From: Streptomyces canus
GTDB taxonomy: Bacteria > Actinomycetota > Actinomycetes > Streptomycetales > Streptomycetaceae
Direction: 5' to 3'
Assembly (NCBI RefSeq): GCF_030816965.1
Contig: NZ_JAUSYQ010000002.1
Coordinates: forward strand, 8,670,001-8,734,000
DNA: 64,000 nt
Shown piece by piece: positions 24,497 through 49,106 of this stretch. A program made the position numbers and the translations under genes. Numbering within the stretch: position 1 is the first letter of the stretch; every line of letters starts with the position of its first letter. Under the pieces are notes generated by a model. That model saw nothing but the letters and a program-made list of their open reading frames with translations. It did no database searches and was not told the DNA's origin.

Positions 24497-25873
24497 CAGG
24501 GCGGTTGCAAGTTCCGGGGTCGTGCGGCTGGTCGGGTTGTGACCGGTTGGGGCGCATAGCAGAGCAGGCACGGGCTTCGTGATCATTGTGGTGTCTAAGC
24601 CAGATGATCACGAGGTGGCCCGTGCCTGCTGCTGCATCCTCTCCCATTCCTGCCGTGCTGGTGAAACTGGGTCCGCTGGACACCGGCCGGATCGCCGACC
24701 TGCGCCCCTACTTCGACTCGGTGCCCGACCCGCGCTCCCGGCGGGGCCGGTGGTACTCGCTGACAGCGGTCCTGCTGGTGTGTGCCTGCGCGGTCGTCTC
24801 GGGAGCGAGGAGCATCGATGAACTCGCCGAGTGGGGCCAGCGTGCTTCAAACGCGCTCCTGACAGTGATCGGGATCCGCCGCCACCTGCTGAGATGGCGG
24901 CGCGCTCCGTCACCGGCCACGATCGGCCGTGTGCTGGGGGCTGTTGACGGTGACGCCCTGGACCGGGCGGTGGGCGCCTACCTGGCCGACCGGCACCGCG
25001 CCGCCACCGAACCCGCCCAGGCGCCGTCGCCCTCCGCGTCCGGGCGGCCCCGCGCGATCGCTGTCGACGGCAAAGCACTCAAGGGATCAGCCCGTCTCAC
25101 CGCGACGCGCCGGCACCTGCTCTCCGCGGTCACTCACGGCACCGTCGTGGCCCTCGCCCAGGTGGAGGTTGGCGCGAAGACGAACGAAACCACACACTTC
25201 CGTCCGCTGCTGGCACCCCTGGACCTGACCGGCACCGTCGTCACCTTCGACGCCCTGCACTCGGTCAAGGCAAACATCTCCTGGCTGGTCGAGACCAAGA
25301 AGGCCCACTACATCGCCGTGATCAAGACCAACCAGCCCACCGCCTACACCCAACTCGCCGCCCTGCCCTGGCAGTCCATCGCACTCCAGCACACCGCCTC
25401 CGGGACCGGACATGGACGCCACGAGTCGCGCTCGATCAAGACCTGCGGGATCGCCGACGGACTCGGCGGAATCGCCTTTCCCCACGCCCGCCTCGCCATC
25501 CGCGTCCATCGCCGCCGCCAGCAGACCGGCCGGCGTGAGACCCGTGAGAGTGTCTACGCCGTCACCAGCCTCGACGCCCATCAAGCCGGGCCCGCCGACC
25601 TGGCCGCCGCGATTCGCGGGCACTGGGGAGTGGAGAACTCCTCGCACCACATCAGGGATGTCACCTTCGCCGAGGACACCTCCACCGTCCACACCGGGAC
25701 CGCACCACGGGCCATGGCGACCCTTCGCAACCTCGCCATCGGCGTGCTGAAAACCCTCGGAGCCGACAACATCGCCAAGACCACCCGGGCGATCCGCGAC
25801 GAGCCCCAACGAGCACTCCCCATCCTGGGCATCACCAACGATTCGGACAGCTACGGAACTTGATCAAGCCCTG
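24497..25873 (+). mobile_element. ISAs1-family element, copy 1 (1,377 bp)
   Basis: Terminal repeats are CAGGGCGGTTGCAAGTTCCG at the left and, inverted, CAGGGCTTGATCAAGTTCCG at the right. An equal-length copy is at 47,721-49,097. The left flank is the group II intron and the right flank is GCCTCGCCG plus the start of an asparaginase locus. The element has no direct target repeat of its own; its right-flank 9-mer is instead repeated, inverted, beside the right end of copy 2. Confidence 0.9.
24622..25863 (+). CDS. ISAs1-family transposase, copy 1
   Basis: 413 residues from GTG 24622, preceded by GAGGTGG; an in-frame TTG at 24586 is a weaker option. Family signatures are DPRSRRGRWYSLTAVLLVCA, AIAVDGKALKGSARL (first Asp), VTFDALHSVKANISWLV (second Asp) and IRGHWGVENSSHHIRDVTF (Glu). 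Intact and identical to copy 2 as far as I compared, so probably a recent and active element. Its action is the best explanation of the inversion in this window. Confidence 0.9.
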   Translation: MPAAASSPIPAVLVKLGPLDTGRIADLRPYFDSVPDPRSRRGRWYSLTAVLLVCACAVVSGARSIDELAEWGQRASNALLTVIGIRRHLLRWRRAPSPATIGRVLGAVDGDALDRAVGAYLADRHRAATEPAQAPSPSASGRPRAIAVDGKALKGSARLTATRRHLLSAVTHGTVVALAQVEVGAKTNETTHFRPLLAPLDLTGTVVTFDALHSVKANISWLVETKKAHYIAVIKTNQPTAYTQLAALPWQSIALQHTASGTGHGRHESRSIKTCGIADGLGGIAFPHARLAIRVHRRRQQTGRRETRESVYAVTSLDAHQAGPADLAAAIRGHWGVENSSHHIRDVTFAEDTSTVHTGTAPRAMATLRNLAIGVLKTLGADNIAKTTRAIRDEPQRALPILGITNDSDSYGT

Positions 25874-25882
25874 GCCTCGCCG
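25874..25882. repeat. 9-bp target duplication, half 1 (GCCTCGCCG)
   Basis: GCCTCGCCG directly follows the right end of ISAs1-family copy 1. Its reverse complement CGGCGAGGC directly follows the right end of copy 2 at 49,098. Nine bases fits the 8-10 bp duplications known for ISAs1. Confidence 0.85.
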
Positions 25883-25970
25883 AGGACCTGCGCACCCAAG
25901 GTATTTGTTCGACCGAATGGCGAATTGCATCTTCGGATGCAGCGAGCGGATCTAGCTTCCGGGATTTCAC
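25874..25970 (-). pseudogene. Asparaginase copy 2, N-terminal fragment
   Basis: The reverse strand from a GTG at 25970 aligns with the first 32 codons of the asparaginase gene at 4006. Both share the GGGATTTCA start region, the ATGGCGAATT word and the final GCCTCGCCG. The gene is cut there by the ISAs1-family element. The rest of the gene follows, in the opposite orientation, at 49,098. Confidence 0.75.
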
Positions 25971-26391
25971 GGGCAACAGCACCTTTGGATTCTATAAAAA
26001 GAAAGAAATCAGCGACTGATGGCATATTGACCAGGCGAAGGAACTCTTTAGCCCGGTCGCTGCGGGTGTGGGATCCTCGAGGTCTGGTCTTGCGTGCCGT
26101 GGATCCGCTCGCCAAAAGGCCATGACCTGCGTTCGAAGATCGGCCGCCGATCGAAGGCGACACCTCGCTTGATCGGTCCGTGCAAGCGGCCGACATGCCT
26201 GTTGGCGTTCCCGTCGGCTGGCCGCTTCGTCTTCCTCGGTATGGAGAACAGTAGTACACCACGCACTCAGCGTCGCCAATTTGAGGAAAAATTGAGCTAT
26301 TCATCGGACGGAATGCGTCCGGTGATCCGCACCCCCCCTTGACGGCCCTCGAGGATCCATGTGGATTATTTGGAGAACCGAAAGGCCCCAC
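25971..26391. promoter_or_regulatory. Diverged copy of the asparaginase/regulator control region
   Basis: Collinear with 4007-4353 but diverged. Shared blocks include CCTCGGTATGGAGAACAGTA, GAAT-GCGTCCGGTGA and GAGGATCCATGTGGATT before the regulator start. No gene lies here. Confidence 0.4.
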
Positions 26392-26505
26392 ATGAGACTG
26401 CTTCTTGTCGAGGATGACATTCACGTGGCTCGTCCCCTCTCCGCACTCCTATCACGACATGGCTTCGAGATACTGCACGCCTGCAACGCCAAGGAGGCGC
26501 TCCAG
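26392..26505 (+). pseudogene. Response regulator paralogue, first 38 codons
   Basis: MRLLLVEDDIHVARPLSALL then HGFEILHACNAKEALQ closely matches the start of the regulator at 4354. Identity stops at GCTCCAG, inside the receiver domain and before the phospho-acceptor Asp. It cannot function. The break joins it to a stretch of unknown origin. Confidence 0.85.
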
Positions 26506-26657
26506 ATCCGTAGCTATTCAGCAGGGTGCGGCCGGTTCGCTGGCCGACTGGCATGATCGCTAGGGTGTCCGGGTGGGGGATCCCGACTGGTCCACGAAGG
26601 ACATCTGACCATCCCCTCGTAGCGTGGAGCCCGTGATTGCAGGGGAAGTTGGGGTTG
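26506..26657. other. Short unassigned stretch between a broken regulator and an IS3 end
   Basis: About 150 bp with no protein match that I recognise. It looks like an IS end (GGTGTCCGGGTGGGG, GACTGGTCCACGAAGGACA), but I cannot place the family. Confidence 0.3.
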
Positions 26658-26845
26658 TCAATCCCCTGGAAACGTAGAGGCTTTGGTTATGCGGCCCGAT
26701 CTTCCTGACTGTGCCGCTCGCGTGCTTCGATGATGATCCGTTCGAACTCTTCCGGCGGTAGCCCGTCCGCCGCGCTGTGCCTGCGCCGGGAGTTGTAGAA
26801 CGCTGTGATCCAGGTGGCGATCTTCAGGCGCGCTTCGTCAGCTGC
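26658..26845 (-). pseudogene. IS3-family OrfB, C-terminal scrap
   Basis: The reverse strand reads ATWITAFYNSRRRHSAADGL then PPEEFERIIIEARER to a stop at 26687. This is the C-terminal signature of IS3-family OrfB integrases, including the last catalytic-domain helix. Downstream lies an IS3-like right end (CTCTACGTTTCCAGGGG on the reverse strand). The upstream part has been replaced by an IS256-type fragment. Confidence 0.7.
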
Positions 26846-32659: not shown

Positions 32660-33694
32660 TCAATGGTCGCGAAGAACAGCGAAGTCCAGCAGAGTAGCCA
32701 AGTCCCCGCACGGTTTTGTTGCGGCCTCGGCGGCATCGAGGTCGCCGAGCGCCGCCTGTACCTGGCGCCTTGTCTCCTCTTCGGTGAGGGCACGACCTCC
32801 TGCGGCTTCTACGAGCACGGTCGCTTTGTCTGCGGCAGCCTCGTCGAGCTCCTTCTGGTACAGGACGGCGAGCTCACGTCCGGCGGGATGATCCGAGGTA
32901 AGTGCGGCCGTCACTGGCAGCGTCCTGCGGCGATTGCGCAGGTCGGATCCCGCCGGCTTGCCGGTGACGGCGGGGTCGCCCCAGATGCCGAGCAGATCGT
33001 CGGTGTTCTGGAACACGATTCCCAGGCGTCGTCCGAACGCGTAATAGCGCTCTACCCGCCGAGGATCCGCGCCGGCCGCCATCGCGCCCAGGGCGCAGGA
33101 TACAGAGAGCAGGGCTCCGGTCTTCGCCGCGCTGACCTCGATCACGTGTTCTACCGTGGTGTTGCTCGCACTGTCGAGGACTGTCTCGGTGTATCCGCCG
33201 TCGAGCCCTGTCTGAAGGGCTCCCAGAAGGAGATCCACTCCCCGCGTCGCCAGCGGTTCTCCAGCCGATCGGAGGGTCTGCAGGGCCAGGTAGAACATCG
33301 ATGTTCCGGTCAGGATGGCGGCCGACGGGCCCAAGGTCGTCCACAATGTAGGCCTGCCGTGGCGGGTGTCGTCCCGATCGATGACGTCGTCGTGGAGCAG
33401 GCTGCCACTGTGGAGCAGTTCGACGGCGACGGCCGCCGGAATCGCCAGCTCAGGGTCACCGCCGGCGGCCTGGCAGGACAACAGCACAACGGCTGGACGC
33501 AGAAACTTGCCTCGCCCTGCGGCCGGGGTCGGGGTACCGGTCGCGTCCCACCAGCCCTGGTGCTGCCCCACCAGATGCCGGATCGTCGCGGCCAGGGAGT
33601 CGACTGTTCGTCGCAGTTCCGGCTCTACGGAGGCGTGAGCCCAGGCGAGCAACTGCTTCGCTGTGCGAGGTTCGACGGTGGTTGAGGTGGACAT
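32660..33694 (-). CDS. Polyprenyl (geranylgeranyl-type) diphosphate synthase 2
   Basis: 344 residues from ATG 33694, preceded by AGAAGGG; an ATG seven codons earlier lacks a good RBS. First Asp-rich motif SLLHDDVIDRDDTRHG, second FQNTDDLLGIWGDP, IPP motif GRGKFLRPAVVLL. Five residues before the first motif is Gly, not the aromatic seen in synthase 1, so product length could differ. Last gene of the cyclase operon, 48 bp after the Nudix gene. It would supply the cyclase substrate. Codon use is Streptomyces-like, unlike synthase 1. Confidence 0.88.
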   Translation of the reverse strand: MSTSTTVEPRTAKQLLAWAHASVEPELRRTVDSLAATIRHLVGQHQGWWDATGTPTPAAGRGKFLRPAVVLLSCQAAGGDPELAIPAAVAVELLHSGSLLHDDVIDRDDTRHGRPTLWTTLGPSAAILTGTSMFYLALQTLRSAGEPLATRGVDLLLGALQTGLDGGYTETVLDSASNTTVEHVIEVSAAKTGALLSVSCALGAMAAGADPRRVERYYAFGRRLGIVFQNTDDLLGIWGDPAVTGKPAGSDLRNRRRTLPVTAALTSDHPAGRELAVLYQKELDEAAADKATVLVEAAGGRALTEEETRRQVQAALGDLDAAEAATKPCGDLATLLDFAVLRDH

Positions 33695-33742
33695 CGTTGA
33701 AGCCCTTCTCGACATGGATCGCGCTGATGGGGCATTGATCTG

Positions 33743-34321
33743 TTATCCGGTGGTCAGAGCCGGGCGTGACAGTCGAACGAGGCCTCGGACACGATCGGCC
33801 TCAGCACCGTCAGGCAGTGCGACTCGAGCATTCGCGAGGAGCCGGAAGCGTTCTGAAGCAGGCCCCGAGCCGTACCGTGCCACATATTCCCAACCATGGA
33901 CGAGCACTCGGTCGAACGACTCGTGCCGAGGGGTGAACGTCGGCATCTCTTGGACCAACCCCGTATAGAACACAGCCCAGATGGTGCGCCGCGTGCGGTG
34001 GTCATGGTCCGCACGCAACAACTGAACGACGGCGAGGGAACCAAGGCGTATGCCGGTCTCCTCCCAGGCTTCGCGGCGGGCGGTTTGCTCCGGGCCGGAG
34101 TCGTAGTCCTCGACGTGTCCGGCGGGGAACTCCACTCCGCGAACCAGTCGAGCGGCTACGATCCTGCCATCCGGGGCGAACGGCACCACCCCGGCGACGT
34201 CGACCCGCCCCACGTCCGCCAGGCGGTGCGGATCGAACCAGGTAAGGGTTGTCCGCACGCCGGCCATGGTGATTGTTCTGGTGCGCTGGGGAACCAGGTG
34301 AGGTGACCCGTTCACTACCAT
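33743..34321 (-). CDS. Nudix hydrolase
   Basis: 192 residues; its ATG overlaps the P450 stop (ATGGTAG), so it is translationally coupled. The Nudix box reads AGHVEDYDSGPEQTA then RREAWEETGI. It is one residue longer than the 23-residue consensus and has Asp where the first conserved Glu would be, but REAWEETGI is canonical. Nudix enzymes cleave nucleoside- or prenyl-type diphosphates. In an operon with a class II cyclase and a prenyl synthase, removal of one or both phosphates from the cyclised diphosphate is a reasonable guess. ADP-ribose-type housekeeping activity cannot be excluded. Confidence 0.75.
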   Translation of the reverse strand: MVVNGSPHLVPQRTRTITMAGVRTTLTWFDPHRLADVGRVDVAGVVPFAPDGRIVAARLVRGVEFPAGHVEDYDSGPEQTARREAWEETGIRLGSLAVVQLLRADHDHRTRRTIWAVFYTGLVQEMPTFTPRHESFDRVLVHGWEYVARYGSGPASERFRLLANARVALPDGAEADRVRGLVRLSRPALTTG

Positions 34322-35505
34322 GTCACCGGAAGTGACTCGACAGAACGCATGGACATGCCGTCCCGCCAGACGAGCTCTCCTGGATCTACGGCGAGGCCGA
34401 GGCCGGGAAAGCGGCTCAATAGTGCCCGGAGGGCGATGCGCTGTTCGAGCTTGGCCAGTCCGGAGCCGGGGCAGAAGTGCGGGCCGTGCGCGAAACCCAG
34501 ATGCTGCGCCGCGTTGTGGCGGGTGACGTCGAGCCGATCAGCCTGCCTGAAGAGTTGTTCATCGCGATTCGCGATATGGGGGAGTGCCACCACCGCTTCC
34601 CCTTCTCGTACCAGCGAACCGTCGACATACGTGTCGTGGAGCGCGACGAAAGGGGGGCTTAGCCGCGCCAGTTTCGAATAGCGCAGCAGCTCTTCGACCG
34701 CGTTGGGAATCAGGTCCGGGCATTGTTTGAGCAGTGCGAGTTGTTCGGGATGCCTGAACAACTCCACCAGGGAGTTGCCGAGCTGGTTGATGGTGGTGTC
34801 GTGACCGGCGATCAGGATGATGCGAATGTTCTTGACCAGCGTCGATTCGTCCAGTGCCGGGTCCTGCCCATCGTCGGTCACCAGGCAGGAGATGAGGTCA
34901 TCGCCGGGATCGGCCCGCTTGTCCCGCACAATGTCCGTGAGATAGGCGTCGAGTTCGTGGAGCGCGGAGAACGACTCACTGGACGGCAAAGTCAAGGACA
35001 GAATCCGGCGCGTCCAGGTCTGGATTTGATCGCGAGCCACGTACGGCAAACCTAGCAGATCGCAGATTACCAGGATCGGGAGCGGCTCGGCGAGCCATCG
35101 CATTACATCTGCCGGCGGGCCGTGCTCGGCCATGGTGTCCAGCAGCTTCGCCACCGTCTCGTTGATGGCCGGTTCAAGCCGATTCACCGCCTGGGTGCTG
35201 AAACCCCGGGCCATGCGGCGCCGGATAGCGGTGAGTTCCGGCGGATCCATGTTGATGACCGACTTGGGGTCGCGGAACAAGGCCATCGGTTTGGGCGCAC
35301 CAGGCCTCAGCGCGGCAGCCCGGCTGAAGGCCGCGTCGGACATGACCTGCCGTACGGCTCGGTAGCTGAGAGCCAGCCACACCACCGCGCCGTCGGCGAG
35401 TCGGGCGCGTGCCATCGGCGCCTGGCCGAGCAGGCGGACACCGTCGGGATCGGTGGCCTGCTCGGCCGGAGTAGGAAAGGGGAAGAGCGGGAGCAGTTCA
35501 GTCAT
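34315..35505 (-). CDS. Cytochrome P450 (cluster oxidase 1)
   Basis: 396 residues from ATG 35505, preceded by GAGGTGTC. Bacterial class I P450, soluble, needing ferredoxin and reductase. The I-helix is IILIAGHDTTINQLGNSLVE, ExxR is VEELLRYSKLAR, and the heme loop is FAHGPHFCPGSGLAKLE with the Cys ligand. The Gly after Cys that is usual two residues on is shifted by Pro (CPG), a mild departure. Likely hydroxylates or otherwise oxidises the terpene made by the operon. No dedicated redox partner is nearby. Confidence 0.92.
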   Translation of the reverse strand: MTELLPLFPFPTPAEQATDPDGVRLLGQAPMARARLADGAVVWLALSYRAVRQVMSDAAFSRAAALRPGAPKPMALFRDPKSVINMDPPELTAIRRRMARGFSTQAVNRLEPAINETVAKLLDTMAEHGPPADVMRWLAEPLPILVICDLLGLPYVARDQIQTWTRRILSLTLPSSESFSALHELDAYLTDIVRDKRADPGDDLISCLVTDDGQDPALDESTLVKNIRIILIAGHDTTINQLGNSLVELFRHPEQLALLKQCPDLIPNAVEELLRYSKLARLSPPFVALHDTYVDGSLVREGEAVVALPHIANRDEQLFRQADRLDVTRHNAAQHLGFAHGPHFCPGSGLAKLEQRIALRALLSRFPGLGLAVDPGELVWRDGMSMRSVESLPVTW

Positions 35506-35672
35506 GACACCTCTGCATTCGGTTTCGGTCCGCCGGTGGTGTCCACTGCGCACTGCCCGCCGTCTCGATGCGCATCAGCACTTCACCGGGGCCCGGCGCG
35601 GACGGCCGCACCGACTCCAATCGACAGGGCTTGTCGATCTCGCCCAGCGCAACTGCTTGGATTTCCACGATG

Positions 35673-36092
35673 TCAGACCCGATCCAGGATGAAGTAGTAG
35701 TGCCTGCCGTTGTCGAGGGAGACCTTGCCGTTCATGATCGCGAGCAACGTGCCGTCGCCGACTTTCTTGAAATGGTCGACGAGTGGCAGGCCGTCGTACA
35801 CCATGGCGGCTGTCACCTCGCCCCGAACTCCACCATCCACAGGCTTGCCGCGCCCTTGACCGCTTCGTTGTTGGCGAAGAGTTCCCCGTTCTCGTCGTAG
35901 CAGATCACCGGCTCGACATCGTCGGCCGAAGTGAACTTCTTGCCGTACCAGCGTAGTTCGGCGAGCATGGCGACCGCGTAGTGCTCCATACCGAAGTCGG
36001 ATCCCTTCCAGTCTCCCAGGATCTCCTCGACGCGGACGGTTTCCCTTGTTGCGAAGCGCGGCGAACTGCGTTTTGGCTTCGAAGCTGTTCAC
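35673..36092 (-). pseudogene. GxWxG/DUF4334 protein, frameshifted
   Basis: Read on the minus strand across three frames: N-terminus VNSFEAKTQFAAL from 36092; then TVRVEEILGDWKGSDFGM to NEAVKGAASLWMVEF in the second frame; then GEVTAAMVYDGLPLVDHFKK to HYYFILDRV in the third. The GDWKG motif and the C-terminal part match the GXWXG-DUF4334 family, of unknown function. The second shift is one missing C (GTTCGGGG where GTTCCGGGG is expected). If the shifts are sequence errors, this is an intact small protein of the terpenoid operon. It lies between an SDR and a P450. Confidence 0.7.
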
Positions 36093-36171
36093 TATTTACC
36101 TTCTCCTTCTTGGACAGTAACGGAGTTCTGCCAACACCATCTGGTGTTGCACCGGAGCCTGGTGAGCTCGC

Positions 36172-36903: not shown

Positions 36904-36913
36904 CGTTGCCTCC

Positions 36914-38239
36914 TCAGTCACGTGGGAGCCCCCGTGCTTCGGGAATCATCGGCAGCCGATGTGGTCGTTCCACCGTGCCCACCCGGGTTTTGGGGCGGAA
37001 GCCGGGTTCGGGCACCAGCCGCCATCGCGCCGCGATGGTCGCGATGACGATGACCAACTCGGTCCAGGCCCACCCTTCGCCGATGCACAGACGATTGCCC
37101 GCGCCGAACGGGATGTAGGCGAACCGCGGCAGGTCACCGCTCCGCTCCGGCAGCCAGCGGTCCGGGTCGAACCGCTCCGGAGCCGGGTATAGTGCCGGGT
37201 CCCGGTGCAACGCGTGCGGGCTGAAATAGACATCGTCGCCGGGATCGAGCCGGATCTCACCGATGGCCACAGGCTCCAGCGCACGCCGCATCAACAACCA
37301 CACCGGGTGCAGGCGCAGGACCTCCTGGGCGACGCGTCTGGTGTAGGACAGTTCCGGCAGGTCCGAGATCGTGGCCGCCCGGCCCATGAGCACGGTGTCG
37401 ACTTCGCGGTGCAGGTGCTTTTCGATCTCGGGATGCCGCGAGAGCTCGTGCCAGGTCCAGGCCAGCGTGGCGCTCATCGTGCCGGTACCGGCGACGAACA
37501 TCGTCAGCAGTTCGTCGCATACCTCGGCGTTGCTCATCCGTTCACTGCCGTCATCGTTGTTCGCTGACAGCAGCATGGACAGGAGATCATCGTCGTCACC
37601 ACCCGCTCGCCGTCGTTCGATCAGCTCGGCGAGTGTCGCGCACAGCACCGCTTTCTCGTCCTGTCCCGCCGCGGGTCTGCCGCTCTCGCGCCGCAGCCGC
37701 AGTCGGTCGACCCATGCCGCCACGGGAGACAGAGCGCGTTTTGTCGCCTTCTGGCGTATCGAGAGCCAAGCGGTGATCGACTTGTCGAGCATCGCGTTCC
37801 GGTCCGAGCCGAACAAGACATCCAGCAGTACGTCGAGCGTCAGGCGGTTGAGGTGCGCGGTAAGTTCGACCGGTTTTCCCGGCGACCAAGAAGCCAGCGA
37901 ATCCACCGTTCTGGCGGTCATGACGTCGGCGTAGCCGCTGATGCGATCCCAGTGGAACGCGGGCTGCGCCAAGCGCCGCTGCCTGCGATGGAAACTCCCG
38001 GCCGAGGTCACCAGGCCGTTCCCCAGGTGGGTCCGCAGCTCGTCGAACATCGCGCCCTTGTCGAATTTCCGTGCTTCGGTCACCAGCACGGCGCGGATCA
38101 GGTCCACGCTGGTGACCACCAGCACCGGCCGGGGACCAATGAAGATCGTCGTGACCTCCCCCCGGTCGCGCAGCGATCGCGTGAAGCCCAGCGGGTCACG
38201 GGCCAGGTCCACACTGTGCCCGAGCAACGGAATCCTCAT
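36914..38239 (-). CDS. Cytochrome P450 (cluster oxidase 2)
   Basis: 441 residues from ATG 38239, which overlaps the cyclase stop (ATGA). The I-helix is TMFVAGTGTMSATLAWTWHE, with AGTGT in place of AGxET/AGxDT, so the acid before Thr is replaced by Gly. ExxR is in AQEVLRLHP and the PERF region in YPAPERFDPDRWL. The heme loop is PFGAGNRLCIGEGWAWTEL. It resembles the longer CYP110-like bacterial P450s more than cluster oxidase 1 does. Coupling to the cyclase gene suggests early oxidation of the cyclised skeleton. Confidence 0.92.
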   Translation of the reverse strand: MRIPLLGHSVDLARDPLGFTRSLRDRGEVTTIFIGPRPVLVVTSVDLIRAVLVTEARKFDKGAMFDELRTHLGNGLVTSAGSFHRRQRRLAQPAFHWDRISGYADVMTARTVDSLASWSPGKPVELTAHLNRLTLDVLLDVLFGSDRNAMLDKSITAWLSIRQKATKRALSPVAAWVDRLRLRRESGRPAAGQDEKAVLCATLAELIERRRAGGDDDDLLSMLLSANNDDGSERMSNAEVCDELLTMFVAGTGTMSATLAWTWHELSRHPEIEKHLHREVDTVLMGRAATISDLPELSYTRRVAQEVLRLHPVWLLMRRALEPVAIGEIRLDPGDDVYFSPHALHRDPALYPAPERFDPDRWLPERSGDLPRFAYIPFGAGNRLCIGEGWAWTELVIVIATIAARWRLVPEPGFRPKTRVGTVERPHRLPMIPEARGLPRD

Positions 38240-39747
38240 GCTGTACGTCCCAGCAACGCGCGATGATGGGCCTGTGCGGCACGCACACCCATCGTCACGA
38301 AGGCGTGGGTCTGGGTTTGGAAATGTGTCAACAAGGGCCGCGGGCCGTACATCTCCGGCTGTCCCGGCCAGGTGCCGTCCGCGCGTTGTGTCCGCACCAG
38401 GTAATCCGTGCCGGCCAGCCACCGGTCGCAGTCGCTGACCTCCGCGCGGTACAGCGCCGTCAACGCGAGTCCGGTCGCACTCGCGCAGCTTTCTTCACCG
38501 GGTTCGGGAGACCAGCCACCGTCCGGGTTCTGGGTCGAGGCGAGCTCGTTCGCGGCGCTTACCGCCGCAGGCTGGTGCTCGAGCGCCTCGACCAGTTCCG
38601 ATGTCGCATAAGGAAAGCCTCGATACCACCCGGCGGCCCGGCGGCCGGTCGGCCCACGTGTCTCGGCAAGCCATGCGCGGGCACGGTCGAGGGGGATGGA
38701 GTGCTCGCCGGCGTGGCGGCTCAACGCGGAGATGACGTGGGCGACGACATCCGGCACCGCGGGATCCTCGCTGAACTGCCAGGTTCGCCAGAGACCGTCA
38801 GCGGTTTGGCGGTCGGCGAAGTACGAAATCGCGCGTCTGACGCGGTCCGTATGCAGGTGACGCCCGGCGAGCGCGATCAGGGCCGCGCTCGAACTGTCGT
38901 TGTCGGACTCGAGATGGGCGGAGAACGGCCAGCCACCGTCATCGTTCTGGGTGCGGCAGAGGAACTCGATCGCTCTTGGTCGGCACTCCCGGTCGAACAG
39001 GGGCACGCCGTTGAAAGCCCGCATCATCAGGGTGGTGTCCCAGACGTCGCTGGAACAGAACCGCCAGGTGCCGTCCGAGCGCTGATTGCCGATCAGCCAC
39101 CTACGAGCGTCGGACCACTGACTCGTCCTCGGTGCGACGGCGTCCAGCGCCAGGAAGGCCAGAGCCGTACTGATCGGGTTGCCGTAGAACGACCCGTCGG
39201 GGCTTTGGTGCTTCTGGAGTTCACCGGCCGCCTCACCTGCGGTGCCCCAGTTGGCGGCGTACGCCTCGACCAACGTCATGGCTGCGAACAGTTCCGCCTT
39301 GCTCCACGGCTTGAGCCGGGTATCACCACTGGCGTCGCACCCGCGCCGGATCGTCTCCCGCAGCTCGACGGGATCGAGGCCGCCGAGGACTGAACGGCCT
39401 TTCCACAACGCCAGCACCTGGATCAGCCTTGCCCTCGCGGAAACGACCGTGCCGGCGAATTCGGGCGACCTGAGGTCCAGCACACAGTGTTCGTCAAGGG
39501 CGAGGGACCGCAGGGCGGTCTCGAATGCTTCGGCAGCCGGGTGATGGCGTTGCACGACAGCACCGCGCAGCCAGCGTCTGGCCTGTCGGGACGCTACGTC
39601 AGCTGTTCGTTTCAAGGCCAGGCAACCCAAAGCCGTTTCGGTGACACGCGGATCGGGGATACTGACCCACCCGCCGTTGGCGCATTGTCGTGCCGCGCAC
39701 CATTCGGTGGCCAGGGTGAGAACCTGTTCCAGGTCGTTCAAGGCCAT
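38236..39747 (-). CDS. Class II terpene cyclase (squalene-hopene cyclase-like, CPP-synthase size)
   Basis: 503 residues from ATG 39747 with GGAAAGGA upstream. QW-type repeats are frequent (QRSDGTWRF, QNDDGGWPF, QTADGLWRT, QNPDGGWSP, QRADGTWPG), and SSDVWDTTLMMRAF matches the VWDT motif before the active site. The position of the acid motif DxDD reads ESDNDSSSAALIAL (Asp282-Asn-Asp-Ser): the proton-donating middle Asp is kept and the last Asp is Ser. Length equals bacterial type-B diterpene cyclases (copalyl/terpentedienyl type), not full triterpene cyclases (over 600). It probably cyclises GGPP by protonation and keeps the diphosphate. It is the first gene of the seven-gene minus operon. No class I terpene synthase is in the window. 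Confidence 0.85.
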   Translation of the reverse strand: MALNDLEQVLTLATEWCAARQCANGGWVSIPDPRVTETALGCLALKRTADVASRQARRWLRGAVVQRHHPAAEAFETALRSLALDEHCVLDLRSPEFAGTVVSARARLIQVLALWKGRSVLGGLDPVELRETIRRGCDASGDTRLKPWSKAELFAAMTLVEAYAANWGTAGEAAGELQKHQSPDGSFYGNPISTALAFLALDAVAPRTSQWSDARRWLIGNQRSDGTWRFCSSDVWDTTLMMRAFNGVPLFDRECRPRAIEFLCRTQNDDGGWPFSAHLESDNDSSSAALIALAGRHLHTDRVRRAISYFADRQTADGLWRTWQFSEDPAVPDVVAHVISALSRHAGEHSIPLDRARAWLAETRGPTGRRAAGWYRGFPYATSELVEALEHQPAAVSAANELASTQNPDGGWSPEPGEESCASATGLALTALYRAEVSDCDRWLAGTDYLVRTQRADGTWPGQPEMYGPRPLLTHFQTQTHAFVTMGVRAAQAHHRALLGRTA

Positions 39748-40019
39748 ATGGGTTTCCTTTCCCAGGGCTTGTATCGGGATATGACCGCGATCAGCTGGTG
39801 CGTCCGGCGTGGCACCCGCGCGTCACTCGGTCCGTAGGACCGCGTGACACGCATTCCGGGTGCCACGCATTCACGGCGGGCACTTCCACAGTGGACGGAG
39901 GCTATGCGGCCTCAGTCGACCCGTCCTCCTCGACGGGCCCGCTCTGGTCCTGGACGCGGCCGGTCTGGACCTGAACGGTCCGGCGCCGGGTCACGTACCT
40001 GCCGCGGCCCGTGTGCGTC
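39748..40019. other. Upstream region of the cyclase operon
   Basis: About 270 bp with no recognised gene. It must hold the operon's promoter unless that was displaced by the rearranged block that begins at 40,020. Confidence 0.4.
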
Positions 40020-40407
40020 TGGCGCGGCGTTGCCGCGGCCGGGTGGGGCAGGCGTCGGCGACGGCGCAGCGCAGCGTGCGGTGCCCGGCAGTGCGGGAGA
40101 TGCTCAGGCGGATCGGGCCTTGGGTGTGCGTGAGTGCGTTCGTGACCAGCTCGCTGACCAGGAGTTCGGCGGTGTCGGTGTGCTCGTGCAGGTGCCATAC
40201 GGCGAGCTGGTCGCGGGTCAGCTCCCTGGCCCGGGCGCCAGCCCGCGTGGCGCGCTCGAGTGGCCAGGAGACCGTCTCGCGGGCGGGTCCGCTCCGGCGG
40301 CTGGCCAGGCGCAGAGCGGCCAGCGCGGCTGCTTTGGTCCGCAGCCGCAGCAGGCGGTTCAGCGGGGCGGGTGCGGCGGGACGGCCGGGGGGTGCGGTGG
40401 GAGTCAT
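40020..40407 (-). pseudogene. Anti-sigma-type ATP-binding protein, truncated duplicate
   Basis: From ATG 40407 this matches the first 130 or so residues of the gene at 10529, through ELLVSELVTNALTHTQGPI and RCAVADACPTRPRQRR. It then diverges; the G box with the HGRG motif is missing. It is part of the 0.69-kb inverted duplication. Confidence 0.8.
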
Positions 40408-40712
40408 GACAGTCCCTGCTCGAGGTGCAGGGCCACAACGCGGGCCATGGCGTGGTTGGGCGCGTCCCGCGACGGACACGGCGGCTGGTGTACAAACATG
40501 GTTGAACCTTCGATCTCCACCGAAAACCAGTGGTGCAAATATCAGATCCTTCGGGCGTCGAGAAGGGGACCCGGAAACTACCTACAACGGCACCTACTTC
40601 TCCGTATCCGGCTGCGAACAGGGCGGCGGGAGCGTTTGCCCGCTGCGGCCAGCACCACCTGCGCAGGCCCGCCGAAGTCCTGCGAGGCCGCAAAGGCCCT
40701 GGACGCCGGGCG
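40020..40712. repeat. 0.69-kb duplication, copy B
   Basis: Reverse complement of 10,224-10,916. Its right edge touches an ISAs1-family end remnant at 40,713. Confidence 0.8.
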
Positions 40713-40741
40713 CAGGGCTTGATCAAGTTCCGTAGCTGTCC
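40713..40741 (-). mobile_element. Right-end remnant of the ISAs1-family element (29 bp)
   Basis: CAGGGCTTGATCAAGTTCCG then TAGCTGTCC is the exact inverted right end of the 1,377-bp element. It is followed at once by the IS6 element. It shows a third copy once stood here and was cut when IS6 arrived. Confidence 0.8.
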
Positions 40742-40745
40742 TGGT

Positions 40746-41606
40746 GGCACTGTCACGTTGGTTGATGGCGTGGGATGATCTTCGGGTTGATCATGCTGGA
40801 GGGGCCGTCCGTGGAGAGCGCACCGCCGTCGTACAGGGGGCACCGGTACCCGGTCGAGATCATCTCCCACGCGGTGTGGCTGTACCACCGCTTCCCCCTC
40901 AGTTTCCGCGAGGTCGAGGAGCTCATGCTCGAGCGCGGAGTGGTCGTCTCCTACGAGACGGTGCGGCGGTGGTGTCTGAAGTTCGGGCAGGCCTATGCCA
41001 ACGCGCTGCGCCACCGGCAACCTGGGCCCGGGGACAAGTGGCACCTGGGCGAGGTCTTCGTCAGGATCAACGGCGAACAGTGGTACCTGTGGCGGGCCGT
41101 CGACCAGGACGGGACGGTGCTGGACATCCTCGTGCAGAACCGCCGGGACAAGGCCGCGGCCAGGCGCTTCTTCCGCAGGCTCCTGAAGAAGACCGGTGCT
41201 GTGCCGCGGGTGATCGTCACCGACAAGCTCCGCTCCTACGGCGCGGCCCACCGCGAGGTCATGCCCTCCGTGGAGCACCGCTCTCACAAGGGCCTGAACA
41301 ACCGGGCCGAGAACAGCCACCAGCCAACGAGGCAACGCGAACGCGCGATGAAGGGCTTCCGCTCCGTCGGCGCAGCCCAGCGGTTCCTGTCCGCGTTCAG
41401 CGGCATCTCACCCCACTTCCGGCCCCGCCGCCATCTGATGACCGCCGTCGACTATCGAGCCGAGATGACCGTCCGCTTCGCGATCTGGGACCAGGTCACT
41501 GGCGCCGCCGTCCAGCCCACCACGCCCTGAGCACCCGGCCGGAACCCGGCCCACCACACCCCGACGCACCGTCAGACACCCACACACCCAACAACGTGAC
41601 AGCGCC
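40746..41606 (+). mobile_element. IS6-family element, copy 2 (861 bp)
   Basis: Same ends and length as copy 1 at 5,244. No target duplication. Sits in the larger duplicated block 40,746-42,293. Confidence 0.85.
40775..41530 (+). CDS. IS6-family transposase, same Asp-to-Gly change
   Basis: Identical in sequence to the protein at 5,273 as far as I compared, including WHLGEVFVRI in place of WHLDEVFVRI. Predicted inactive by the same reasoning. Two copies of a dead transposase in one window argue that the DNA was copied by another route. Confidence 0.85.
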   Translation: MIFGLIMLEGPSVESAPPSYRGHRYPVEIISHAVWLYHRFPLSFREVEELMLERGVVVSYETVRRWCLKFGQAYANALRHRQPGPGDKWHLGEVFVRINGEQWYLWRAVDQDGTVLDILVQNRRDKAAARRFFRRLLKKTGAVPRVIVTDKLRSYGAAHREVMPSVEHRSHKGLNNRAENSHQPTRQRERAMKGFRSVGAAQRFLSAFSGISPHFRPRRHLMTAVDYRAEMTVRFAIWDQVTGAAVQPTTP

Positions 41607-41920
41607 CCCCGCTGCCCCGCCCCGTGTGTTGGACGACTCTCTGTATGAGCACGAAGGTGGTGGTTGGCGACACTCGCGGTGGGCATGAGTGTTGATCTTG
41701 GTGGGCAGTCTGATCTTGCTTCGTGCGCGACGACATGGTGTGCACGAGGTGGAGGTGCGGAGTGCGGTCCACCCCCCTACCCTCACGCTCGCTCATGACC
41801 AACATGATCCCCGACCACCAGAGCCAGGAGAGATGCCCTCCCCAACAGGTTTCTCCAGCCGCCCCCGATCGCCGAGACGCCAAGCGACACCGCGTGCATG
41901 AAGCCGACACCGTGTTCACG

Positions 41921-41954
41921 ACGACCCCGGCGGCCTGACGGCCGCCGGGGTCGT
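41921..41954. terminator. Strong GC-rich hairpin terminator (duplicate)
   Basis: Same 15-bp stem, TGAC loop hairpin as at 6,419. Confidence 0.8.
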
Positions 41955-42293
41955 TTCATCCCGTCCCATCGACAACCACAGCGTCGCCTTGGCGCACACC
42001 TTCAGCGTCGCTCAACACCCGTGCGCAGTGGCCGTGGTGTTCTTCACGTACGGCCCGCGGGACGCGGAGCCGGAGGTGAATGCGTAGCGGTTTGGGTATT
42101 CTCCCCCATTTGCTGCACCGAAACCAACCGACATGCTTGCCTACTGATCGAACCTGCGTGGCGCTTGGATGCCTGCAGGTACGCGGGCCCGACACGCCCC
42201 TCCGACAAAGGTTTGGATCTATGACGCTTTCCCTTCCTCTGCCTATAGCTGCCCCTGCCGACGCCTTGAGGCCGCGCGCGTGCATCGCCGCGG

Positions 42294-42570
42294 TCCAGTC
42301 GCGGGATCCCTTGTACCGATACAAGCAAGAAGCCCCGAATCCCGCCGTTGCCGACGCTGCTCCGCCATCCACCCGCGCACCGCGCTGCCGCAGGCGATCC
42401 CGCCGAGGAGGCCGGTGACCGCCAGGGGCATACCCTCCGGGGTCCTGACCAGGGATTCCGTGACCGGACCACCCGGAATACTGTCCAGGCTGAGGGATGG
42501 TCAGGTCTTTTGTTGTTGGGAGTCAGCTCAGGGTCTCAGAGCGTTGTGGTGAACCGTGCAGCGTTCGAGG
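42294..42570. other. Unmatched 0.28 kb inserted in the duplicated block
   Basis: This stretch separates two pieces that are adjacent at 6.79 kb. The reverse strand can encode PLAVTGLLGGIACGSAVRGW, a hydrophobic Gly/Ala-rich run, but the family is not recognisable. Confidence 0.35.
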
Positions 42571-42597
42571 CAGCTGGGTGGGCTGAGGAGTTCGGAG

Positions 42598-43590
42598 GTG
42601 GTTCAAATCGTCAGATGGTCGATCCGATACGACATGCGAATGCCCGACCTAGGAGGACGATCTCGCGCCGCACAGTACGCGGCCGCGCTGGAGCAAATCG
42701 CCTGGGCGGACCGGCACGGCCGTCCCACCGTGTTCATTCCCGAGCATCATGGCACTTCCGATGGCTATCTGCCATCCCCGCTCACGATGAGTGCGGCGAC
42801 GGCGGCGTGCACCTCCCGAGCGACAATCCTGCCATGCTTGGTGCCGACCCTTCGAGATCCGTTCGCGGTAGCGGAGGATCTTGCTGTCCTCGACCTGATA
42901 TCGGGCGGGCGCACGGAAGTACTTTTGGTCGCAGGTTACCTGCGTCGCGAATTCGCCATGTTCGGCGTCGAATTTGACAAGCGAGGCTCTATTTTTGAGG
43001 ACAAGATCGCGGTAATTCGGCGCCTCCTGACCGGCGACACCGTCACATATCAGGGCCGAACGGGGCAGATCACTCCACTGCCCGTGCAGCGTCCGCCGAA
43101 AATGATTCTCGGCGGCAGTTCCTTGGCGTCGGCCCGACGCGCGGCGGTTCTGGGGGATGGCTACTGGCCGGCTGTCAGCGCCCCACGGCTGCAACAGATC
43201 TACCTGACACTGTGCGATCAGGCCGGTCGACGAGCAGGATTCATTCCGCCACCAACGATTCAGGCGATATTCGTCGCCGAAGATCCAGAACGAGAGTGGA
43301 CACGGATCGGCCCGAGTGTGCTACATGACATGAACGAATACCGAAAGTACTCGGCCTCGACACCAGGAGCCAGTCTATATGCACATCAAACTCTCGACAC
43401 GATAGCCGACGTTCGCAAGACTGGTATGTACCTCGTGGTCACGCCAGCCGAGTGTGTCGAACTCGCGATGTCGCTACTCCCGGAGCAAGGACTGCCGCTG
43501 CACCCGTTGATCGGCGGCCTCGACCCAGACATAGGTTGGTCGAGCCTGGAACTCTTCGCCAACCGTGTACTGCCGGAGCTCGGCGAGTGA
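42598..43590 (+). CDS. Luciferase-like (LLM) flavin-dependent monooxygenase
   Basis: 330 residues from GTG 42598, preceded by GAGGAG; an in-frame GTG at 42556 would add 14 residues of patchwork sequence. WSIRYDMRMPDLGG starts the TIM barrel. FIPEHHGTSDGYLPSPLTM, LPCLVPTLRDPFAVAEDLAV and DLISGGRTEVLLVAGYLR are typical, and PPKMILGGSSLASARRAAVL is the C-terminal signature. Enzymes of this group use FMN or F420 to oxidise small molecules. It may tailor the terpenoid, but it reads in the opposite direction to the cyclase operon. An SDR follows 40 bp on. Moderate GC. Confidence 0.85.
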   Translation: MVQIVRWSIRYDMRMPDLGGRSRAAQYAAALEQIAWADRHGRPTVFIPEHHGTSDGYLPSPLTMSAATAACTSRATILPCLVPTLRDPFAVAEDLAVLDLISGGRTEVLLVAGYLRREFAMFGVEFDKRGSIFEDKIAVIRRLLTGDTVTYQGRTGQITPLPVQRPPKMILGGSSLASARRAAVLGDGYWPAVSAPRLQQIYLTLCDQAGRRAGFIPPPTIQAIFVAEDPEREWTRIGPSVLHDMNEYRKYSASTPGASLYAHQTLDTIADVRKTGMYLVVTPAECVELAMSLLPEQGLPLHPLIGGLDPDIGWSSLELFANRVLPELGE

Positions 43591-43630
43591 CGAGTAGTTG
43601 CACGCGGCTACCGACTGGTCTGGAGGAACG

Positions 43631-44392
43631 ATGAGCATCGACCTGTCAGGACGCACTGCGCTCGTCACTGGAGCCACCAGTGGTATCGGGCGTGCCACCG
43701 CAATGACCCTCGCCGCTGGCGGTGCTTACGTTGTGCTGTCCGGACGTGATGCGGAGCGGGGGAGCGACGTCGTCGCCAAGATCGCCGCTGCTGGCGGCAA
43801 GGCCGACTTTGTGGCGGGCGAACTGTGCGATGCGAGCAGTGCGCGTGCATTGGCCACCTGTGCCTGTGAATTGGGTCGTGGCCACGTGGATGTGCTCGTC
43901 AACAACGCTGGCGTTTTCCCGCTCGGGCCGACCGCAAATACCGAGGAAAGCGATTTCGATGCAGTGCTCGGTCTCAACCTGAAGGTGCCGTACTTCCTGG
44001 TAGCCGAGCTGGCGCCGAAGATGGCCGAACACGGTGGAGGGGCCATCGTCAACGTGTCGACAATGGTCGCGGAGATCGGTATGGCCGGCATGGCGCTTTA
44101 CGGTGCGAGCAAGGCGGCGCTGGAGCTGCTGACGAAGGCATGGACCGCTGAGTTCGGGCCCTACGGCGTGCGGGTCAACGCCGTCGCCCCCGGACCTACT
44201 CGTACCGAGGGAACGGCGCCGCTGGGCCCGGCACTCGATCAGCTGGCGGCAGCCGCCCCTGCAGGCCGGGTCGCGTCGTCACAGGAGATCGCTGACGCCG
44301 TGGCATATCTGGCCAGTGACGCCGCCAGTTTCGTGCAGGGTGTGGTGTTGCCGGTCGACGGTGGCAGGGTTGCCATTCTAAGCAGCGTGTGA
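43631..44392 (+). CDS. Short-chain dehydrogenase/reductase
   Basis: 253 residues from ATG 43631, preceded by GGAGGAACG. SDR features: TGATSGIGRATAMTLAAGG, SGRDAERG (Arg favours NADP), NNAGVFPLG, Ser in VNVSTMVAEIG and YGASKAALELL. C-terminal VLPVDGGRVA. Likely co-transcribed with the LLM oxygenase. Could act on the same terpenoid, or belong to a separate two-gene unit brought in with flanking IS elements. Confidence 0.9.
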   Translation: MSIDLSGRTALVTGATSGIGRATAMTLAAGGAYVVLSGRDAERGSDVVAKIAAAGGKADFVAGELCDASSARALATCACELGRGHVDVLVNNAGVFPLGPTANTEESDFDAVLGLNLKVPYFLVAELAPKMAEHGGGAIVNVSTMVAEIGMAGMALYGASKAALELLTKAWTAEFGPYGVRVNAVAPGPTRTEGTAPLGPALDQLAAAAPAGRVASSQEIADAVAYLASDAASFVQGVVLPVDGGRVAILSSV

Positions 44393-46018: not shown

Positions 46019-46056
46019 CCAAGTCCGGAACGGACATCAACTCACGAACCGCCCAC

Positions 46057-46942
46057 TCAGGGCGCGTGCACTGGTGAGGTGTTGGTGAACGGCGAGGGGT
46101 GAGTGGACAGTTGCCAGGAGCCGCCGAACTTCTGCCACGGTGAGGGGCGCGAGGCAGGAACCGTTTCTGCTGCCCCTTTTGCCGCGGCGTCGGCGGCCAT
46201 GACGGCCAGGAAGGCGTGCGCCAGCATGGCCAGGGTGATGTGGCGCATCCAGCCGGTGTAGCGGCGGACTTCGTACTGGTCGAGGCCGCACTCGTTCTTC
46301 GCGGCCTGGAAGGCTTCCTCGATGGCCCAGCGCATCCCGGCGACGCGTACGAGGTGCTCGACCGTGGTGCCGAGCGGTGCGTGGGCGAGGTAGTAGGCGA
46401 TCTCTTCGGGCTTGCTGATGCTGCGGCGTGCCAGTGCCCACCGCTGGTGGATCGGCATCTCGCCGTCGAAGTCCTCGATGGATGTGATCTCCAGGGCGGC
46501 CCAGTGGTAGACGCGCGGGCCCTTTGCGCCGTCACCGCACGAACGTTGCTCCCACGCTTCGTCGGGGGCCTGGGAGAAGAGGTGATCGATGCGTCCGAAG
46601 TGCGGCACCTGCTGGGACCTGGGGACCGCGAGCACATATCCCAGACCGGTCTCCTCCAGCATGCGGCGCAGCCGCCACTCCTGGCCGTAGGCCGCATCTG
46701 CGGTCACCCAGGCGATCGGCAGCGGCGAGGCTATCGCCCGCAGCACCATGGCCTTGGCCAGGTCGGGTTTCGTGGCGAAGGCCCGCTCGTCGGGGATGTG
46801 GGCGGCGCGGCAGCGGTCGCGGTCGTCGGTCCAGGACTTGGGCAGATACAACTCCCGGTCCACCAGGGCGCGTCCGCGTGTGGTGGCGTAGGCGGCGAAC
46901 ACGCCGATCTGGCAGTTTTCGGTGCGGCCGGGGGCCCGTATT
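46057..46942 (-). pseudogene. IS701-family transposase B, N-terminus missing and C-terminus split
   Basis: Reading from 46942: GRTENCQIGVFAAYATTRGR, then PIAWVTADAAYGQEWRLRRM (Asp) and GMRWAIEEAFQAAKNECGLD (Glu), an IS701-type DDE core. The C-terminus changes frame near 46,160 and continues as PLTVAEVRRLLATVHSPLAV, where element B cuts it at 46,057. The N-terminal part is replaced by the ISAzo13 end at GRTENCQ, the same relative codon as in IS701 copy A. Confidence 0.8.
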
Positions 46943-47634
46943 TCAATAACTGTCAGCGACGGGTTTCCGCGGGGGTTGTTCGGGCGTGTAGCTGTTCCAA
47001 CGTGCGGGCGGGCGATCCGGGTATCGGCGTGACGAGGATTCTGTGCAGGTCCAGGAGCCGTTTTGCGTCCTGGTACTGGATGGACAGGTTGGTGCGGTTG
47101 ACGCCCAGTAGTTGCGCCCAGGAACGTCATGGTCACCACTCTGCGGCGGCGCAGGATGGCTGCCAGGAGCCGGTGGGTGTGGTCCACGCTGCTGGTCTGT
47201 GGGTGACGGTAGCTGCGCGGGCGGTGGAAGCGTCGCTGGAATGCCGCCTCGGCCAAGGCGTCCCAGAAAGGCTCCGAGACCGCCACCAAATACTCGAAGG
47301 CGATTCGTGACATGCCGGTCAGGGCCGGATCGGTGAGCATCGCGGTCAGGGCCGGGTCGGCCCGGCATGTCGTTGCCGGCGCGTCTGGCGCTCGCGGTGG
47401 AACGGGAGACAGTGTGTAGTTCCAGTCACCGTGGAAGGCATTGGGTGTGATCGCAAGAGCGTGAAACTCGGCGGGTGTCACGCTGATGCCGAGGTCGTAG
47501 CTGCCTGTGTCCAGTTCGGCCGTGATGGTCAGGCCGGTCTTGGTGGTTGTGGCGGCGATGGTCTCGAGGACGACCTGGTAGCTGGTCAGCGGCCGCCCCC
47601 GCCAGTTCGCGGTGATGTGACAGAACATCCGGTG
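46936..47634 (-). pseudogene. ISAzo13-family transposase, 3' exon half
   Basis: From CACCGG at 47634 the reverse strand reads HRMFCHITANWRGRPLTSYQ and ELDTGSYDLGISVTPAEFHA. This completes KWNKIE at 23892. An extra G near 47,120 shifts the frame (TTCCTGGGCG where TTCCTGGCG is expected), and the expected tail NRTNLSIQYQDAKR is then out of frame. The element's right repeat, inverted GGCCCGTATTTCAATAA, ends at about 46,936. Confidence 0.8.
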
Positions 47635-47720
47635 GTGAAGTCGGCCCGGGGCGCGGTCTCGTCTTTCGATCGAGCCGTTTCCCCGGAGCCGCTTCCCGCA
47701 CCCGGCGTGCCGCTCTCACG
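47635..47720 (-). other. Group II intron, 3' end (domains V-VI)
   Basis: On the reverse strand, CGTGAGAGCGGCACG resembles the loop side of domain V. The stretch CGATCGAAAGACG is a tetraloop hairpin of domain VI type, and the intron ends with CCGACTTCAC directly before the exon codon CAC. The opposite end joins ISAs1-family copy 2. It pairs with the 5' part at 23,893-24,496. Confidence 0.65.
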
Positions 47721-49097
47721 CAGGGCGGTTGCAAGTTCCGGGGTCGTGCGGCTGGTCGGGTTGTGACCGGTTGGGGCGCATAGCAGAGCAGGCACGGGCT
47801 TCGTGATCATTGTGGTGTCTAAGCCAGATGATCACGAGGTGGCCCGTGCCTGCTGCTGCATCCTCTCCCATTCCTGCCGTGCTGGTGAAACTGGGTCCGC
47901 TGGACACCGGCCGGATCGCCGACCTGCGCCCCTACTTCGACTCGGTGCCCGACCCGCGCTCCCGGCGGGGCCGGTGGTACTCGCTGACAGCGGTCCTGCT
48001 GGTGTGTGCCTGCGCGGTCGTCTCGGGAGCGAGGAGCATCGATGAACTCGCCGAGTGGGGCCAGCGTGCTTCAAACGCGCTCCTGACAGTGATCGGGATC
48101 CGCCGCCACCTGCTGAGATGGCGGCGCGCTCCGTCACCGGCCACGATCGGCCGTGTGCTGGGGGCTGTTGACGGTGACGCCCTGGACCGGGCGGTGGGCG
48201 CCTACCTGGCCGACCGGCACCGCGCCGCCACCGAACCCGCCCAGGCGCCGTCGCCCTCCGCGTCCGGGCGGCCCCGCGCGATCGCTGTCGACGGCAAAGC
48301 ACTCAAGGGATCAGCCCGTCTCACCGCGACGCGCCGGCACCTGCTCTCCGCGGTCACTCACGGCACCGTCGTGGCCCTCGCCCAGGTGGAGGTTGGCGCG
48401 AAGACGAACGAAACCACACACTTCCGTCCGCTGCTGGCACCCCTGGACCTGACCGGCACCGTCGTCACCTTCGACGCCCTGCACTCGGTCAAGGCAAACA
48501 TCTCCTGGCTGGTCGAGACCAAGAAGGCCCACTACATCGCCGTGATCAAGACCAACCAGCCCACCGCCTACACCCAACTCGCCGCCCTGCCCTGGCAGTC
48601 CATCGCACTCCAGCACACCGCCTCCGGGACCGGACATGGACGCCACGAGTCGCGCTCGATCAAGACCTGCGGGATCGCCGACGGACTCGGCGGAATCGCC
48701 TTTCCCCACGCCCGCCTCGCCATCCGCGTCCATCGCCGCCGCCAGCAGACCGGCCGGCGTGAGACCCGTGAGAGTGTCTACGCCGTCACCAGCCTCGACG
48801 CCCATCAAGCCGGGCCCGCCGACCTGGCCGCCGCGATTCGCGGGCACTGGGGAGTGGAGAACTCCTCGCACCACATCAGGGATGTCACCTTCGCCGAGGA
48901 CACCTCCACCGTCCACACCGGGACCGCACCACGGGCCATGGCGACCCTTCGCAACCTCGCCATCGGCGTGCTGAAAACCCTCGGAGCCGACAACATCGCC
49001 AAGACCACCCGGGCGATCCGCGACGAGCCCCAACGAGCACTCCCCATCCTGGGCATCACCAACGATTCGGACAGCTACGGAACTTGATCAAGCCCTG
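47721..49097 (+). mobile_element. ISAs1-family element, copy 2 (1,377 bp)
   Basis: Same ends and length as copy 1. Left flank is the group II intron 3' end (inverted); right flank is CGGCGAGGC and the body of asparaginase copy 2. Confidence 0.9.
47846..49087 (+). CDS. ISAs1-family transposase, copy 2
   Basis: 413 residues, identical to the copy at 24,622 as far as I compared, with the same catalytic motifs (AVDGKALKGSARL, VTFDALHSVKANI, HWGVENSSHHIRD). Identity of the two copies means they separated recently, or that gene conversion keeps them alike. Confidence 0.9.
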   Translation: MPAAASSPIPAVLVKLGPLDTGRIADLRPYFDSVPDPRSRRGRWYSLTAVLLVCACAVVSGARSIDELAEWGQRASNALLTVIGIRRHLLRWRRAPSPATIGRVLGAVDGDALDRAVGAYLADRHRAATEPAQAPSPSASGRPRAIAVDGKALKGSARLTATRRHLLSAVTHGTVVALAQVEVGAKTNETTHFRPLLAPLDLTGTVVTFDALHSVKANISWLVETKKAHYIAVIKTNQPTAYTQLAALPWQSIALQHTASGTGHGRHESRSIKTCGIADGLGGIAFPHARLAIRVHRRRQQTGRRETRESVYAVTSLDAHQAGPADLAAAIRGHWGVENSSHHIRDVTFAEDTSTVHTGTAPRAMATLRNLAIGVLKTLGADNIAKTTRAIRDEPQRALPILGITNDSDSYGT

Positions 49098-49106
49098 CGG
49101 CGAGGC
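49098..49106. repeat. 9-bp target duplication, half 2 (CGGCGAGGC)
   Basis: Reverse complement of GCCTCGCCG at 25,874; both lie directly outside the right end of an ISAs1-family copy. Confidence 0.85.

Follow-up and report, generated by a model that had tools for sequence, protein, structure and literature searches.

Probable inversion of 21.8 kb by two paired ISAs1-family right ends in the Streptomyces canus chromosome

Introduction

How did two identical insertion sequences, standing more than 21 kb apart, come to carry the two sides of one target beside the same type of end? The question is raised by a stretch of 64,000 nucleotides from Streptomyces canus (RefSeq assembly GCF_030816965.1, contig NZ_JAUSYQ010000002.1, positions 8,670,001 to 8,734,000 of the forward strand), hereafter called the window, to which all coordinates refer. 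The window sits in the 10.5-Mb contig of a 10.66-Mb genome in two contigs, which was searched as a whole. It holds two copies of an ISAs1-family insertion sequence (IS). Their right ends abut the two sides of a site upstream of an asparaginase gene, and their left ends abut two parts of ISAzo13-family sequence interrupted by group II intron fragments. Genome inversions between IS copies are commonly attributed to homologous recombination. A first-pass annotation of the window had proposed another origin, in which two IS ends acted together. We find that this is most probably what happened: two facing right ends would have paired, lost the DNA between them, attacked a nearby target and inverted 21.8 kb, in a deletion-inversion of the Tn10 kind.

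Results

Both IS copies (copy 1, 24,497-25,873; copy 2, 47,721-49,097; both on the + strand) are 1,377 bp long and in direct orientation, as first annotated, and they are identical at 1377/1377 positions. The transposase frame of copy 1 (24,586-25,863) matches the ISAs1 family model NF033564 with 178.7 bits, for a cut-off of 70, and contains PF13808 and PF01609. The terminal inverted repeats start with CAGGGC at both ends, and left and right ends share 15 of their first 20 positions. These two are the full copies in the genome, among six matches (40 of the 349 first-look candidates were scored). A search of PDB sequences with the transposase returned a lipase as its sole match (E 0.34), which was disregarded.

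The word GCCTCGCCG after right end 1 (25,874-25,882, + strand) is the exact reverse complement, over nine bases, of the word CGGCGAGGC after right end 2 (49,098-49,106, + strand). The inverse 9-mer is present at both right ends, and at no left end; GCCTCGCCG has a frequency of about 9e-5 per position in the window. It also follows a truncated right end in another genome (G108), where the sequence beyond appears unrelated by eye, and we take that occurrence as chance.

Beyond these words, the right flanks match two adjacent parts of one locus. On one side lie an intergenic region and the 5' part of a response-regulator gene (25,874-26,509, + strand), collinear with 3,904-4,471 (73.0% identity over 126 bp and 74.6% over 410 bp). 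On the other side lies the asparaginase gene with its upstream region (49,098-50,149, + strand; PF06089, 332 bits), an inverse match to 2,862-3,910 at 86.9% identity; its frame, 49,133-50,149, has a nearly full-length Asparaginase_II match. The reference for both is an uninterrupted asparaginase/response-regulator paralogue in the same window (2,862-4,471, - strand, with its response regulator at 4,282-5,043), taken to represent the empty site. When the reverse complement of the sequence starting at 49,098 is followed by the sequence starting at 25,874, the upstream region of the asparaginase gene is restored, and then the start of the divergent response-regulator gene. The first-pass annotation had named the asparaginase gene as the site of attack, but the target word is situated upstream of its frame and not within it.

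This join was evaluated by scanning overlaps. The reverse complement of 120 bases from 49,098 was joined to the sequence from 25,874 onwards, and aligned to 3,771-4,010 with overlaps of -3 to 20 bases. Removal of exactly nine bases was the best of the 24 overlaps, with a score of 187 and an alignment free of gaps over 171 columns, while the other 23 reached at most 179. Only one of 2000 random segments of the window, used as right partner, reached 187. Farther from the junction, the restored join shows a 6-base gap relative to the paralogue, about 60 bases beyond. The collinearity first noticed by inspection is thereby confirmed, on condition that the 9-bp word is counted once: a base-for-base join requires it. 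At the corresponding position, the paralogue has a different word, GCTTCGCTG.

To place the length of nine bases, we used a sample of 33 loci containing relatives of the IS, from the same genus. Both ends were present within 1,600 bp for 26 copies in 25 of these loci, the other eight loci being left out; each copy was counted once, and a spurious 1,299-bp pairing in L102 was dropped. L043, L046 and L048 stand outside the 26-copy count (L046 was paired, without a repeat). A 9-bp direct repeat flanked 12 of the 26 copies exactly and two more with one mismatch, and 12 had none. Nine bp is therefore the target duplication of this type of IS, one base below the 10 bp given for ISAs1-family elements in PMC11946415. 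The insertion words are diverse. The right flanks of the two copies in the window are thus supported as the two sides of a single target, bearing the element's own duplication.

Two of the 12 copies without repeats, both from genome G024 and close together, are in direct orientation, one of them internally deleted; in the manner of a composite unit, a common 9-bp word is present at their outermost ends and not at the inner ones. This pair indicates that ends of separate ISAs1-family copies can act together. In G024:C38 (L102) and G378:C1 (L156), units of about 3.5-3.6 kb have ends of the ISAs1 type and are bounded on both outer sides by one 9-bp word; they are apparent composite transposons. 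In genome G144, four ISAs1 copies (L042, L151, L152 and L154) share a 12-base flank at their right end (GGAGCCGTCGAT, read in one orientation), and their other-end flanks differ.

The left flanks form a second pair. Left of copy 1, the 5' part of an ISAzo13-family element (22,857-23,892, + strand; NF033519, 436 bits) extends to an intron site, and is followed by a group II intron fragment (23,893-24,496, + strand) cut by the IS. Left of copy 2, and in inverse orientation, are found an 86-nt group II intron 3' end (47,635-47,720, - strand), also cut by the IS, and then the 3' part of ISAzo13-family sequence (46,931-47,634, - strand; 96.1% identical to L055, NF033519 profile positions 313-387, outer limit set from the terminal repeat). 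One flank therefore reads as exon 1 and intron fragment, the other as intron fragment and exon 2. In five other genomes (L055, L056, L057, L058 and L063), the two ISAzo13 parts, 22,857-23,892 and the reverse complement of 46,931-47,634, abut each other to the base; L058 has an insertion in the 3' part, and L063 a deletion in the 5' part. Two joins are thus restored, from which the inverted segment would be 25,874-47,720, or 21,847 bp. Since the target halves both adjoin right ends, and the ISAzo13 parts both adjoin left ends, the two right ends would have been inserted together. The words beside the left ends, TGGAATGCC (CGTGAGAGC in the orientation of the element), do not match, and a simple composite insertion at one intron site was ruled out on this ground.

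The 5' intron piece consists of 18 nt of an outer intron and 586 nt of a nested one. It is 99% identical to an intact intron of the same genome, L049 (99.3% to positions 1075-1677). The 86-nt 3' piece shows 77-79% identity with the 3' ends of six nested introns, compared with 76% for the 3' end of the outer intron next to L049. An intron apparently nested at nucleotide 18 of another (23,893-23,911) gives a double 5' stem, seen in the window and in seven other loci (L049, L050 and L105-L109). Nesting is indicated by comparing L049 with L099, also in this genome, which has the same outer intron but lacks the inner one. No Rfam family matched the fragments at gathering score, so that their naming as group II introns relies on boundaries and nesting rather than on a family model. 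Elsewhere in the genome, the sequence due after the 5' fragment is confined to two complete introns (100% and 92%) and to matches of 64-72% in related introns. This continuation has therefore been lost from the locus, as expected if the middle was deleted (no search covered the remainder of the other intron). From the coordinates, about 3.6 kb would be missing if the ancestor was one nested-intron element with the lengths of L049 and L098.

The outer flanks of the ISAzo13 parts are less simple. Each is the C-terminal half of an IS701 transposase gene, and the two genes differ; both halves point outward and are cut at a similar position: no. 1 on the left (21,953-22,828, - strand; NF033540, 251.5 bits, profile positions 121-363) and no. 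2 on the right (46,057-46,930, - strand; 299.3 bits, profile positions 110-362). A single ordinary insertion of the ISAzo13 element is disfavoured, because an N-terminal half would be expected on one side. Either two ISAzo13 copies had recombined earlier, or each ISAs1 copy was located in an ISAzo13 copy of its own and all that separated them was lost in the event. The ISAs1 copies may have occupied either two ISAzo13 copies or the nested introns of a single one; the first option would also account for the two kinds of intron fragment. The pairing of right ends stands whichever history of the ISAzo13 sequence holds. By eye, the flanks of L057 and L058 resemble the same kind of IS701 target.

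An isolated right end of this IS, 29 bp long and one of the six matches in the genome, is present at 40,713-40,741 (- strand), next to an IS6-family copy. On one side of it, within 40,021-42,293, is a 692-bp exact inverse copy of 10,224-10,915, and on the other a 1,551-bp exact copy of 5,241-6,791, which comprises an IS6-family element and about 688 bp. The region 40,021-42,293 looks like a second copy of the product of an IS6 attack on an ISAs1 copy formerly located at 10,223/10,224. The window also contains a diterpenoid-type cluster in two blocks, 11,759-21,512 and 32,660-44,392, with isoprenoid-precursor genes (lytB, gcpE, polyprenyl synthase, dxs and dxr), and a terpene-cyclase-like gene accompanied by P450s and a prenyl synthase. 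The inversion would have altered the relative orientation of the two blocks.

Discussion

The following series of steps would generate the present arrangement. At the start, two identical ISAs1-family copies would have been inverted relative to each other, right end towards right end, one having cut an intron in the 5' part of ISAzo13 sequence, the other an intron in the 3' part. The transposase would have paired and cleaved these two right ends, rather than the left and right ends of one copy. The DNA between them would have been lost, about 3.6 kb for one nested-intron element of the L049 type, and more for two ISAzo13 copies. Both free right ends would then have attacked a single site, 21.8 kb distant and upstream of an asparaginase gene, with opposite-strand topology and a stagger of 9 bp. 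Filling of the gaps would leave one 9-bp copy per right end, and the 21.8 kb in between would be inverted, turning the ISAs1 copies into direct repeats.

Three features of the Tn10 product are recovered at the locus: two equivalent IS ends are joined to either side of a single target, which bears the duplication typical of the element; the IS copies are direct repeats; and DNA between the inside ends is missing, judged from the remainder of the nested intron. With the target on two right ends, the intron continuation lost and a direct-repeat product like that of Tn10 (PMC2723962), the core of the first-pass proposal is upheld. One may go further and suppose that the ISAs1 transposase excises conservatively after pairing right ends, and that a single event both deleted everything between two ISAzo13 copies and inverted the 21.8 kb; we hold this extended version as tentative and rather doubtful.

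Several observations weigh against the proposed event. The 3' intron piece is no closer to the outer intron beside L049 than to nested introns. Intron fragments do abut both left ends, as first annotated, but by their sequence they are of different lineages and not halves of one intron; the 86-nt fragment may come from the 3' terminus of a further outer intron, or from a different element. That the IS copies stood simply inside a group II intron, as had been proposed, is not supported either, since the fragments lie in ISAzo13-type sequence, possibly that of two copies. With lineages differing on the intron side and genes differing on the IS701 side, one has to suppose either an additional event or two copies of ISAzo13. 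Among the flanks of relatives compared within their genomes, there was no second pair of the right-right or left-left kind, in a comparison that covered part of the copies in those genomes and whose strict criterion for ends passed over diverged ones, for instance in G144; the present event is therefore a single case. The predicted structure of the transposase has a mean pLDDT of 37.8, which is unusable, and so lends no support to cut-and-paste chemistry.

Relatives did not provide the ancestral order either. The search of related strains that the first-pass annotation had suggested gave no exact match to the 23-base empty site in the genome contigs (a set that may omit very near genomes). Among the matches listed from 392 genomes, asparaginases outside this genome were at most 79% identical, and no uninverted order was seen. 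No relative with it having been found, we infer the uninverted order from the restored joins. Gene order around the diterpene cyclase favours neither orientation. Besides this genome, eight of the 392 passed a threshold of 1e-60 and seven of the eight were compared (G182 was left out); with the locus of S. phyllanthi added (one of the 80 kept loci), eight loci were available. In seven of the eight, a P450 and a short-chain dehydrogenase come after the cyclase, which is also the order of the window. G064 resembles the window, too, in having a SpoIIE-type gene next, on the same strand. Isoprenoid-precursor genes are nearby in S. phyllanthi only, in an order that fits neither state. The comparison is uninformative; everything it covers is either internal to the segment inferred to be inverted or stops short of its ends. 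The basis for concluding that two right ends acted together is a single genome, with two restored joins and one 9-bp word.

Among other explanations, the one that survives best is that the two right ends were first joined to each other, and that this right-right junction then attacked the target. The final product would be identical. Such a route has a precedent in IS30, which forms active junctions of its inverted repeats from one or two, sometimes distant, copies, leading to deletions and inversions (PMC9333248). The IS30 junctions described there join a left to a right repeat (exclusively so in IR-targeting), whereas the ends concerned here are both right ends, and for this reason we rate the route lower than direct pairing, as improbable. 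No junction is seen at the locus, and the available parts of the literature covered do not establish which pathway ISAs1 elements follow.

The conventional explanation would be a set of ordinary insertions, with later homologous recombination between the IS copies, or else an assembly error at the identical copies. The complete identity of the copies over 1,377 bp favours exchange between them, and the ISAzo13 sequence flanked by two different IS701 genes might itself be a trace of exchange at ISAzo13. Yet exchange or misassembly re-pairs left with right flanks and never shifts a flank from one type of end to the other, an argument already made in the first-pass annotation and which we find sound. 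Recombination would thus have left one half of the target on each end type, and both halves are on right ends. To obtain them in this way, two independent insertions in opposite orientations would be needed at the same 9-bp word of two asparaginase copies, although insertion words vary among related copies and the paralogue does not have the word in question. We therefore reject this explanation as very improbable. Equally improbable is a composite unit with its right ends outside, inserted into the target by one ordinary transposition and rearranged later by other recombination: such units of this IS type exist (G024), and would give 9-bp words on the outer ends, but the insert would have to be circularly permuted, running from the 3' part of ISAzo13 to its 5' part, and further rearrangement would be needed to reach the present order.

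Returning to the pairing of two right ends, what distinguishes an inversion made by a transposase from one made by recombination in a finished sequence is the type of the ends, together with one 9-bp word. Flanks of same-type ends that are reverse complementary over the length of the duplication can be looked for in any genome, and such a test would show how often pairs of IS, as opposed to recombination, rearrange chromosomes.

The mechanism is already known from Tn10, and is not reported for ISAs1 elements among the matches listed in the open-access literature, in agreement with the first-pass annotation; the available parts of PMC3281130 and PMC4709979 hold nothing on mechanism. ISAs1-family insertions, such as those of Frankia pyrEF mutants, have terminal repeats of 14-22 bp starting with CAGGG; the insertions described in PMC11946415 are simple, with 10-bp direct repeats, compared with 9 bp here. 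The likeness to IS30 is that ends of two separate copies cooperate and produce inversions; IS30 belongs to another family and acts, as described in PMC9333248, through left-right junctions. Tn5 has a pair of IS50 copies that yields inversions, and in vitro its purified transposase produces them in the manner of Tn10; its inversions in vivo are described as replicative, with an extra copy of the transposon (PMC2723962), and no extra copy is found here. In Tn10, with its pair of IS10 copies, two inside ends of inverted copies act together, the centre is deleted, a neighbouring segment is inverted and direct IS repeats result, according to the same source. The S. canus locus differs from Tn10 by its ISAs1-family ends and transposase, by its 9-bp duplication and by being a natural chromosomal scar. 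It differs also in that the ends paired would be two right ends, which depart from the left end at five of the first 20 positions, and the finding thus implies that right ends of the ISAs1 family can pair with each other.

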